Below are positions 42,560 through 45,508 of a DNA stretch of 64,000 bases, piece by piece. The stretch is taken from NCBI RefSeq assembly GCF_011057685.1, contig NZ_LNFY01000009.1, positions 305,810-369,809 on the forward strand. Reading direction: 5' to 3'. Positions within the stretch are counted from its first letter, which is position 1. Each line of letters opens with the position of its first letter. The notes under the pieces were generated by a model. It worked only from the letters and a program-made list of their open reading frames with translations. It was not told where the DNA came from and did not search any database. A program made the translations under genes and the position numbers. Source of the stretch: Thermotoga sp. Ku-13t. Lineage in GTDB: Bacteria; Thermotogota; Thermotogae; Thermotogales; DSM-5069.

Positions 42560-42937
42560 TCAGCTCACGAACACACGCACGATTGTGCCATCTTCGCTCG
42601 ATATGTTTACCATATCTCCTTCGAATTCTTCCAACCTTTCAAGTGCCTGATCCAGTTGCTTCGATATACTTTCTAGATCGATGCCAGGTATCTTCTCTTT
42701 GAAAGCAGGTAAAGAGAGCTTCAACAACTGCGCCATACTCAGAGGGATCTTCACATCGACCTTTTCTCCCTTGGGACCCCTGATCTGAATGTAGAGCATC
42801 CTTCTGGACGATTTTTCTTTCGTCATCTCCTGGGGCTGTGAAAAAATTCCAACGGTCTCTGCTATCTCCACCGCTTCCTCTGGGCTCAGTTTACCGTCCC
42901 TGACGAGCTTGAACAACTTTAAGAGTTCATCCCTCAT
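42560..42937 (-). CDS. small SHOCT-like/beta-domain protein
   Basis: About 125 residues. The N-terminal stretch LLKLFKLVRDGKLSPEEAVE is a SHOCT-like helix pair of the kind found in YvlB-type proteins. A charged linker leads to a strand-helix-strand domain ending with a DMVNISSEDGTIVRVFVS strand pair. ATG 42937 follows GGGGGG by about 6 nt; a GTG at 42955 is in frame but overlaps that site. The C-terminal domain resembles that of the next protein upstream. Function unknown. Confidence 0.7.
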   Translation of the reverse strand: MRDELLKLFKLVRDGKLSPEEAVEIAETVGIFSQPQEMTKEKSSRRMLYIQIRGPKGEKVDVKIPLSMAQLLKLSLPAFKEKIPGIDLESISKQLDQALERLEEFEGDMVNISSEDGTIVRVFVS

Positions 42938-42951
42938 CGATTTCCCCCCTT

Positions 42952-43473
42952 TCACACCAGACCAATCCTGACCGTTGCGGTTTCAGTTTCGATGTGGACA
43001 AAATCTCCTCTGTACGTTGATATCTCGTCGAGGCAAGAATTGATCAACTTCATCGCGATCTTCAGATCTTCTTCTGACACGGAGAAAGGCATCTTTTTGT
43101 TCAAAAACCGTGCAGCGATCGGTGCAAGTGAGTTGAGGAACGGTTTCAAAAGCAGGATTAACGAAACGGGTATTGAGATCCTCACGGTGGTGTTGTCATG
43201 TTTTTCTTCGATCCAGACGATGAGTTTTCTTCCCGTCTGTGAGGTGAAAAAGCTTGCGAGCCACCCCAGGTCTTCCTCACTGAGCTTGTCTCTGAGCTGT
43301 TCTTTGAGGAAAGAAAGTTCTTTCTCTCGCCTTCTCTTAGCCCTGATCCTGATCTTCAAAAGTGAAAGGATGAGATAAAGTCCCGCGGCAAAAAACAGCA
43401 CGCCAAAAAACACTCTGGCACCGAAGATCAACAATCCAAGTCCTGCCACGATCAGAGTCACGGCAAGCACCAT
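42952..43473 (-). CDS. membrane protein with C-terminal domain related to the next gene
   Basis: A 173-residue protein with two N-terminal membrane helices (AVTLIVAGLGLLIFGARVFF and GVLFFAAGLYLILSLL), a basic loop, and a cytoplasmic-looking domain ending in DFVHIETETATVRIGLV. That ending mirrors the downstream protein in spacing and pattern. This suggests a membrane-anchored and a soluble version of one domain. ATG 43473 follows GAGGTGG. It heads the operon to 37551 and has its own strong promoter. Confidence 0.7.
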   Translation of the reverse strand: MVLAVTLIVAGLGLLIFGARVFFGVLFFAAGLYLILSLLKIRIRAKRRREKELSFLKEQLRDKLSEEDLGWLASFFTSQTGRKLIVWIEEKHDNTTVRISIPVSLILLLKPFLNSLAPIAARFLNKKMPFSVSEEDLKIAMKLINSCLDEISTYRGDFVHIETETATVRIGLV

Positions 43474-43519: not shown

Positions 43520-43614
43520 GTTCCAATTTCATATTTTCCATAAGGAAGCGTCGAAGACGTGGGGGTGCGGAACGTTTGTGTAAAGTTTTATTTTCTAAAC
43601 CTTAATGATGGTGG

Positions 43615-43623
43615 TGATAAAAT
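43615..43623 (+). promoter_or_regulatory. probable extended -10 promoter of the rplU operon
   Basis: TGATAAAAT (43615-43623) reads as an extended -10 (TGnTAAAAT). The -35 region is poor. Initiation about 7 nt downstream would give a leader of about 95 nt containing the hairpin structure before rplU. Confidence 0.5.
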
Positions 43624-43644
43624 ACTCGTGCTGATCATACATTC

Positions 43645-43703
43645 GGCACTTGGAAAACGTCATAAAGGTTCCACGGTTCAGTGGAACTACGTTTTTCAGT
43701 GCC
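43645..43703 (+). ncRNA. structured leader of rplU (candidate L21 autoregulatory element)
   Basis: Three nested stems are perfectly complementary: GGCACT (43645-43650) with AGTGCC (43698-43703), AAAACGT (43654-43660) with ACGTTTT (43689-43695), and GTTCCAC (43668-43674) with GTGGAAC (43681-43687), closed by the loop GGTTCA. Short internal loops separate the stems. It ends 23 nt before the GTG of rplU. Leaders before rplU that bind L21 are known in Firmicutes; similarity of this one to them is not shown here. Confidence 0.7.
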
Positions 43704-43726
43704 TGTCTTACCGGGGAGGTGTGTGC

Positions 43727-44050
43727 GTGTACGCGATCATCGAAACTGGCGGAAAACAGTACCGTGTCAGTGAAGGTGACATCGTGGCGGTAGAGAAACT
43801 GCCGCAGGCAGAGGGTGAACCGGTCGTGTTCGACCGTGTGGTTCACGTCTCTACAGACCAGGGAGTCAAGATAGGTCAGCCTTATGTCGAAGGCTGCAGC
43901 GTTCAAGGCATCGTGATGAAGCACGAGAAAGCCCGAAAGGTGATGTCGATAAGGTACCGGCCAAAGAAGAACGTTCGAAGAAGGCGTGGACACAGACAGT
44001 GGTACACTCTAGTCAGGATCGAAAAGATCAACGTTGGTGAGGGCTCGTGA
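43727..44050 (+). CDS. rplU: 50S ribosomal protein L21
   Basis: Ribosomal large-subunit protein of 107 residues with the family start YAIIETGGKQYRVSEGDIV and the C-terminal RPKKNVRRRRGHRQWYT segment. The frame is open upstream to 43559, but GTG 43727 is the family start and follows GGGGAGGTG. The preceding 100 nt form a strong hairpin. Its stop overlaps the prp start (GTGA). Confidence 0.96.
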   Translation: MYAIIETGGKQYRVSEGDIVAVEKLPQAEGEPVVFDRVVHVSTDQGVKIGQPYVEGCSVQGIVMKHEKARKVMSIRYRPKKNVRRRRGHRQWYTLVRIEKINVGEGS

Positions 44051-44382
44051 TAAAGGCGAGGTTCACTTTGGTGAACGGCCACTACGTCTCTTTCTCTTTT
44101 GAAGGTCACAGCGAATTCGATGCCAAGGGAAGAGACATCGTTTGTGCGGCCATCAGCGCACTCGCACAGCACACGGCAAGAATGCTCGCCGAACACTGTG
44201 GCGCCATCGTTGAAAAGGGATCAGCAAGGTTGAAAGTAGAATTGGCTCAGCCGAACGAACTGTCGGATCTTTTGATCGAAGAGCTATATCGAAGCGTTGA
44301 TAACATCAAATCGCAGTACCCACAAAACTTGTCGGTGGAGGTGAAGATCAATGAAAATCGACATACAGTTGTTCGGTCGTAG
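44047..44382 (+). CDS. prp: ribosomal-processing cysteine protease Prp
   Basis: Cysteine protease of 111 residues (YsxB family) that removes an N-terminal extension from L27. The catalytic pair is His21 in [12 protein letters not shown] and Cys33 in [11 protein letters not shown]. It lies between rplU and rpmA as in Firmicutes, with a 4-nt overlap to rplU and a 32-nt overlap into rpmA. GTG start. The L27 next door carries the matching cleavage motif. Confidence 0.93.
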
Positions 44383-44623
44383 GAAGAGCGGCTCGATAGG
44401 TAACAGGGACAGCAATCCGAAGTACCTTGGAGTGAAGGTTGGAAACGGTCAGTTGGTCAGGGCTGGTAACATAATCGTGAGGCAGAGAGGGACCAAGATC
44501 CATCCGGGAGAGAACGTAGGTTGCGGTAGGGATTTCACACTCTTTGCTCTCAAAGATGGGATTGTTAAGTTTTACGAGAGAAGGAACAGAAAGTTCGTAA
44601 AGGTCATTCCACAGGAACAATGA
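44351..44623 (+). CDS. rpmA: 50S ribosomal protein L27 with cleavable N-terminus
   Basis: Ribosomal protein of 90 residues. It begins [15 protein letters not shown]: the IQLF segment matches the Prp cleavage motif of extended L27 proteins, so mature L27 would start at Gly9. The rest has [18 protein letters not shown] and [15 protein letters not shown]. The ATG lies inside prp. Its N-terminal tail reaches the peptidyl transferase centre in known ribosomes, so cleavage is essential where it has been studied. Confidence 0.95.
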
Positions 44624-44636
44624 GGAGGGACAGAAA

Positions 44637-45080
44637 ATGGCACGCCCTTTACCGATACAGAAAACCACGATTGTGAGGAATGCTGGAGGAAAATGGTATC
44701 TGGTCGATGCATCCGGAAAAGTGTTGGGTAGGCTTGCGAGCCAGATAGCCAAGTATTTGATGGGAAAGAACGAACCAACGTTCTTCCCAGGCGTTGACAA
44801 CGGCAACTACGTGGTGGTCATCAACGCGGACAAGGTCGTCCTGACCGGTAAGAAACTCGATCAGAAGATCTATTACCGCCACAGCAATTATCCAGGTGGA
44901 TTAAAGATGCAGACGGCGAGACAACTGCTCCAGACACATCCTGAAAGGTTGATATATCTGGCAGTGAAAAGGATGTTGCCCAAGAAGGCACTTGGAGACA
45001 GGTATCTGAAAAGACTCAAGGTGTACGCTTCTGATAAACACCCCCACGAAGCTCAAAAGCCTGTGCCGATCGAAATATGA
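44637..45080 (+). CDS. rplM: 50S ribosomal protein L13
   Basis: Ribosomal protein of 147 residues with [40 protein letters not shown] and the [20 protein letters not shown] motif. It starts 13 nt after rpmA with GGAGGGACAG upstream and pairs with rpsI, as in most bacteria. Confidence 0.96.
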
Positions 45081-45094
45081 TGGGAGGGTGAACA

Positions 45095-45508
45095 ATGGCT
45101 GTCGTTGCTGAGCAGGTCATTTACCATGGCGTTGGTAGAAGGAAAACTTCCGTCGCCCGTGTATATCTGAAACCTGGTAATGGAAAGCTCATCATAAACG
45201 ACAAAGAATACTCAGACGCAGAAGAGTATTTTAAAGACACGGTGAGAGCCAGGCACGCAATGGAACCGCTCGTTGTGACGAACATGGTTGGAAAGTTCGA
45301 CGTGATGATCAACGTCAGGGGTGGAGGACTTTCCGGACAGGCTGGTGCAGTGAGGTTGGGGCTTGCCAGGGCGCTCGTGCAGTTCGATGAGGGTTTGAGA
45401 CCAACGTTGAGAGAGAAAGGCATGCTCACGAGAGATCCGAGGATGGTGGAGAGGAAGAAGTACGGATTGAAGAAAGCCCGCAGGGCTCCTCAGTACTCCA
45501 AGAGATGA
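45095..45508 (+). CDS. rpsI: 30S ribosomal protein S9
   Basis: Ribosomal protein of 137 residues. It has [40 protein letters not shown] and the C-terminal [12 protein letters not shown] tail that contacts P-site tRNA. GGGAGGGTGA precedes the ATG. It is the last ribosomal gene of the operon; an 88-nt gap follows before dnaG. Confidence 0.96.

Follow-up and report, generated by a model that had tools for sequence, protein, structure and literature searches.

The stretch of DNA analysed here, referred to as the window, comprises 64,000 nucleotides of Thermotoga sp. Ku-13t. On its forward strand lie the genes rplU, prp, rpmA, rplM and rpsI, preceded by a compact hairpin at 43645-43703, which is the 5' leader of the rplU-prp-rpmA-rplM-rpsI mRNA and probably acts in cis. 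The features of this region are given below, where P1a, P1b and P2 denote the helices, A3 is an alignment made with plain MAFFT from 25 leaders of four families, f1 to f11 are working family labels for Thermotogota genomes, and RF00559 is the Rfam L21 leader.

43615-43623, forward strand: extended -10 element TGATAAAAT; nearly all families examined have TG-N-TANAAT 8-26 nt upstream of the stem
43645-43649, forward strand: 5' strand of P1a, GGCAC, pairing with 43699-43703; compensatory changes in A3 columns 3-57 and 4-56
43650, forward strand: one-base bulge (U43650 and U43651 are equivalent here), retained across Thermotogota and in the RF00559 consensus CGC-a-C
43651-43660, forward strand: 5' strand of P1b, pairing with 43689-43698; invariant GU/AC at the internal-loop end
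43661-43665, forward strand: asymmetric internal loop on the 5' side only, CAUAA (consensus NNNAA); AA invariant in A3, same loop in Bacillota leaders
43666-43667, forward strand: A43666-U43688 pair and bulged G43667, as compared across leaders
43668-43687, forward strand: apical hairpin P2, GUUCCAC-GGUUCA-GUGGAAC, of variable length; from the fold and compensatory changes
43688-43703, forward strand: U43688, 3' strand of P1b (43689-43698) and 3' strand of P1a (43699-43703); from the A3 alignment
43709-43721, forward strand: candidate small hairpin UACC/GGUG partly covering the Shine-Dalgarno region; seen in family f1, RNAalifold on A2
43713-43720, forward strand: Shine-Dalgarno region GGGGAGGU, from the sequence
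43727-44050, forward strand: rplU, ribosomal protein L21, start GTG 43727 (Pfam PF00829, 125.6 bits; start position conserved across loci)
44047-44382, forward strand: prp, cysteine protease Prp (Pfam PF04327; match to the solved structure 1s12, TM1457 of T. maritima, which fits the phylum Thermotogota)
44351-44623, forward strand: rpmA, ribosomal protein L27 with the N-terminal extension MKIDIQLF (Pfam PF01016)
44637-45080, forward strand: rplM, ribosomal protein L13 (Pfam PF00572)
45095-45508, forward strand: rpsI, ribosomal protein S9 (Pfam PF00380)

A long open reading frame running through the leader (43559-44050) was rejected as a gene because the conserved start of L21 is GTG 43727. Between valS and rplU two overlapping small genes were found on the minus strand (42560-43473). 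One gave a weak SHOCT-like DUF2089 C-terminal match below the cut-off (26.5 bits, cut-off 27), and the other had no Pfam match.

An earlier note on this DNA had described three perfectly matched stems of 6, 7 and 7 bp within 59 nt. All of them are present at 43645-43703, namely GGCACU/AGUGCC (43645-43650 with 43698-43703, 6 bp), AAAACGU/ACGUUUU (43654-43660 with 43689-43695, 7 bp), and GUUCCAC/GUGGAAC (43668-43674 with 43681-43687, 7 bp). Together they form one coaxial rod made up of P1a, a one-base bulge, P1b, a 5-nt loop, an A-U pair with a bulged G, and P2. The 59-nt segment folds with -30.4 kcal/mol, compared to a mean of -11.5 (sd 2.7) for dinucleotide shuffles (z -7.0), and none of 200 shuffles was as stable. 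With the RNA parameters used, the pairing probability of the stems is still 0.86-0.90 at 80 C. The position just upstream of the ribosome site of rplU is likewise borne out by the Shine-Dalgarno core at 43713-43720 and the GTG start codon at 43727. A transcript start downstream of 43703 had been named as the observation that would speak against a leader. The start predicted from the extended -10 element is at about 43630 and thus upstream of the hairpin, which begins approximately 20 nt after this box and ends approximately 10 nt before the Shine-Dalgarno sequence. Among the parsed leaders of all families, the Shine-Dalgarno sequence starts 9-22 nt after the stem.

rplU was detected in 100 of the 103 genomes of the phylum, and upstream regions were read at 99 loci. 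A parser built on this shape (P1a and P1b separated by a single bulged base, the NNNAA loop, a pair with a bulge at its side, and P2) scored at least 40 in 37 of these 99 leaders, but in none of 1980 shuffled leaders and in none of 1806 neighbouring stretches of the same loci. In A3, 95.5% of the cells were paired versus 77.6% in column shuffles and 34-46% with the 3' partners slid, and 104 cells carried double changes versus 34 in shuffles. Unconstrained RNAalifold recovered 16 of the A3 pairs, with double changes at 11. In the larger alignment A5 (62 leaders) 96.0% of the cells were paired and double-change cells numbered 252 versus 82 in shuffles, a count that is biased towards structure because A5 was fitted to the structure model. 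At a single P1b pair up to 37 of the 62 sequences were changed on both sides; the loop-adjacent GC and UA pairs were invariant. Covarying base pairs upstream of rplU, suggested earlier as a feature to look for in Thermotogota, are abundant in both alignments and show that the leader structure is conserved by compensatory change.

Two covariance models were built from Thermotogota sequences only, R1 from A3 and R2 from A5; all their E-values are rough due to a shortened calibration. R1 matched the window hairpin (E 4e-13) and gave a single match in its own whole genome, at rplU (E 3.6e-12). It also found the held-out families f5, f7 and f11 as well as the core in f10, and R2 reached f8 and more of f10. 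Together both models matched 75 of the 99 Thermotogota rplU loci at E<=0.05. Among the unmatched loci are forms that look divergent (f3 g10/g11/g14 and some f8) and the f10 genera g29, g30 and g34, in which the leader structure was not seen by eye either. As the three group together as a well-supported clade of the L21 tree, the leader was likely lost in a single event. At the f10 loci L014, L017, L042, L079-L081, L083, L085 and L087, which belong to this clade, the leader is absent and rplU-prp-rpmA is kept, a point against the regulatory explanation given below.

The earlier note had left a choice between a new family and a divergent member of the L21 leaders described for Firmicutes, and had proposed a comparison with the L21 leader covariance model. 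Neither at the gathering cut-off nor at E<=10 did RF00559 match in the window, where only chance matches were obtained, and its gathering cut-off of 36 bits was reached by none of the 103 Thermotogota genomes. The hairpin is outside RF00559 as curated, below the detection limit of Rfam. The best score, 28.5 bits, was found in f8, of which four genomes gave sub-threshold matches (E 0.001-0.004 per genome), all directly before rplU and all with the same bulge, loop and pair.

Bacillota leaders found with RF00559 and then read share the core GGU-NNNAA-(G/A)-N-P2-(C/U)-ACC with those of Thermotogota. Like RF00559, the window hairpin is about 60 nt long and lies directly upstream of rplU-prp-rpmA at a short Shine-Dalgarno distance. 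It has a lower stem with a single-base 5' bulge followed by an upper stem, an asymmetric loop ending in AA, a base pair with a bulge beside it, and P2 at the apex, which corresponds to GGU-NNNAA-(A/G)-N-P2-(U/C)-ACC. The pair next to the bulged base is A-U in the window and in most Thermotogota, whereas it is G-C in the RF00559 consensus and also in family f8. Further differences concern the flanks. The near-constant CGC/GGCG stem ends and the AGUCU tail, the latter as seen in Bacillota loci, are replaced in the window by GGCAC/GUGCC followed by UGUCU. P1a is variable across Thermotogota, and the near-constant 5' AACCGC and 3' GGCGAGUCU flanking the Bacillota leaders are both missing there. 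Moreover, unlike in the RF00559 setting, the operon of the window is extended by rplM-rpsI.

The whole-genome searches of Bacillota were the only blind tests, since the 30 Bacillota loci used otherwise had been chosen by RF00559. Against 299 genomes R2 gave 17 matches at E<=0.05, every one immediately before rplU and in its orientation, and R1 gave 3 matches in 149 genomes, again all at rplU. Because of the shared core and the detection in both directions, the Thermotogota leader is best seen as a diverged branch of the Bacillota L21 leader, both belonging to one structural kind. Hence, the divergent member is supported and a new family is disfavoured.

Taking these observations together, we assign a probability of roughly 0.7 to the following explanation as a whole. 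As a diverged L21 leader, the hairpin would be recognised by excess free L21, or less likely L27, at the internal-loop core GU-NNNAA-A-N / U-AC between the two stems. Once bound, the protein would lie next to the Shine-Dalgarno sequence, at the border of the 30S footprint, and would hinder 30S loading, so that the output of the operon would follow ribosome demand. From the short conserved Shine-Dalgarno spacing and the lack of a conserved terminator we infer that control is translational rather than transcriptional. Thus, L21 most likely binds the leader and lowers translation of its own operon.

The choice of the ligand is based on gene content. The genes common to all leader-bearing loci are rplU and rpmA, and the L21 gene is always the first. 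Being the first gene and present at every leader locus, L21 is the best candidate, with L27 as the main alternative, and binding of the leader by the encoded L21 is put forward on these grounds. The E. coli rplU-rpmA operon reportedly shows no response to the proteins it encodes (PMC10931766). Autoregulation by L21 would therefore have no precedent in E. coli, and the control would be lineage-specific. A literature search found no experimental proof of the ligand of the L21 leader, and a crude scan of 23S rRNA for local motifs mimicking the core gave only weak, G-U-rich matches.

That the same regulatory leader answers to another protein is unlikely, although it is the most probable of the alternatives. 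The ligand would then most probably be L27, which is encoded beside every leader examined, or L13 where rplM belongs to the operon. The invariable first position of L21 argues against another ligand, as does the fact that prp is missing in family f9 while the leader is kept. L13 has known leaders in E. coli, Firmicutes and Bacteroidetes (PMC7247131), and the operon of the window resembles the setting of the L13 leader in having rplM and rpsI downstream. Position and structure of the element, however, follow rplU rather than rplM. In f1, f9 and a few further families the operon runs on into rplM-rpsI. Families f2 and f10 bear the leader too, but there the next rplM comes only after several hundred bases. 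At three Bacillota loci checked rplM was not found, and the Rfam L13 leader model had no match in the window at the gathering cut-off or in the E<=10 scan.

Improbable, in our view, is a transcription attenuator, in which P2 and the following ACGUUUUU would act as intrinsic terminator, and read-through into rplU would depend on pairing in other parts of the leader. A terminator-like site does exist at 43667-43688 with the tail ACGTTTTTCA, and at least 5 U in 8 positions follow a GC-containing P2 in all 11 f1 leaders and in all 7 parsed leaders of f2 g5/g6. In this combination of P2 and U-run the f1 leaders resemble intrinsic terminators. The GC-rich hairpin with U-run is nevertheless restricted to f1 and f2 g5/g6. 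Since none of the 37 parsed leaders outside these groups was classed as terminator-like, attenuation is not the conserved function. In addition, the U-run doubles as the 3' strand of P1b, and no conserved antiterminator partner was found. An alternative 5' hairpin (GUGCUGA/UCGGCAC), which by eye is possible in some but not all species of the genus, would compete with P1a, but is outcompeted by it when the transcript starts at 43629.

It is still less probable that the Thermotogota and Bacillota leaders are unrelated, convergent solutions. No Thermotogota genome exceeds the RF00559 cut-off, and the P1a sequence and the 3' tail differ between the phyla. On the other hand, the core agrees position by position and detection succeeds in both directions, with 17 of 17 R2 matches at rplU. 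Intermediate forms also exist in Bacillota, where the loci L216/L227 and L223 carry Thermotogota-like CUUG/CAG stems, those of L216/L227 as CGCUUG...CAGCG together with the AGUCU tail. The weakest alternative is a structural 5' UTR hairpin that only stabilises the mRNA or marks it for processing at high temperature and has no protein ligand. It agrees with a very stable rod near the 5' end whose stems are paired at 80 C in the model. It is nevertheless very improbable, as stability alone would not explain why the bulge, the asymmetric AA loop and the bulged base next to an A-U or G-C pair are preserved in both phyla, mesophilic Bacilli among them, and only before this one gene.

How the two phyla came to share the L21 leader is addressed by the L21 protein tree, which is weakly resolved (144 rows, 105 columns). 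In 99% of the bootstraps a branch separates the Bacillota from all other sequences. This short alignment therefore gives no support to rplU having moved recently between the phyla by horizontal transfer, and the pattern would be compatible with a leader shared since ancient times as well as with a single early transfer. We tentatively consider that the leader was present in the common ancestor of Bacillota and Thermotogota and was inherited with rplU, whereby a protein-binding core of about 25 nt was kept and nearly all other bases drifted; we stop short of preferring this history. By their descriptions, most r-protein leaders do not extend beyond a single phylum, and in a survey of 20 new ones only one spans more than one phylum (PMC7247131). 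The leader is probably a feedback switch of ancient origin, which has escaped the reference databases in Thermotogota. What the two phyla share is a minimal core of the L21 leader, the likely protein site, and the shared gene content narrows the ligand to L21 or L27. Furthermore, both the RNA and the protein from Thermotogota are heat-stable, which suits them to binding or structural studies.

Some families show peculiarities of their own. Loci of f9 without prp between rplU and rpmA are L026, L035-L037, L044, L048, L057, L062, L063 and L065 as well as L067, L068, L070, L071, L074, L075 and L089. L27 of this family starts with MAHKK or MARK and does not have the MKIDIQLF extension found in the window, which appears to be a joint loss of the Prp protease and its target peptide in L27. 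In f3, a Prp-like gene is kept in most loci though L27 has no extension. Three f9 genomes (L026, L035, L063) have a tRNA gene some 200-300 nt upstream of rplU, encoded on the opposite strand. In the f2 loci L049-L051, L066, L072, L073, L077, L078, L092, L096 and L097, P2 is long and ends in a conserved apical CCCGCAC loop, which is possibly an extra binding element.
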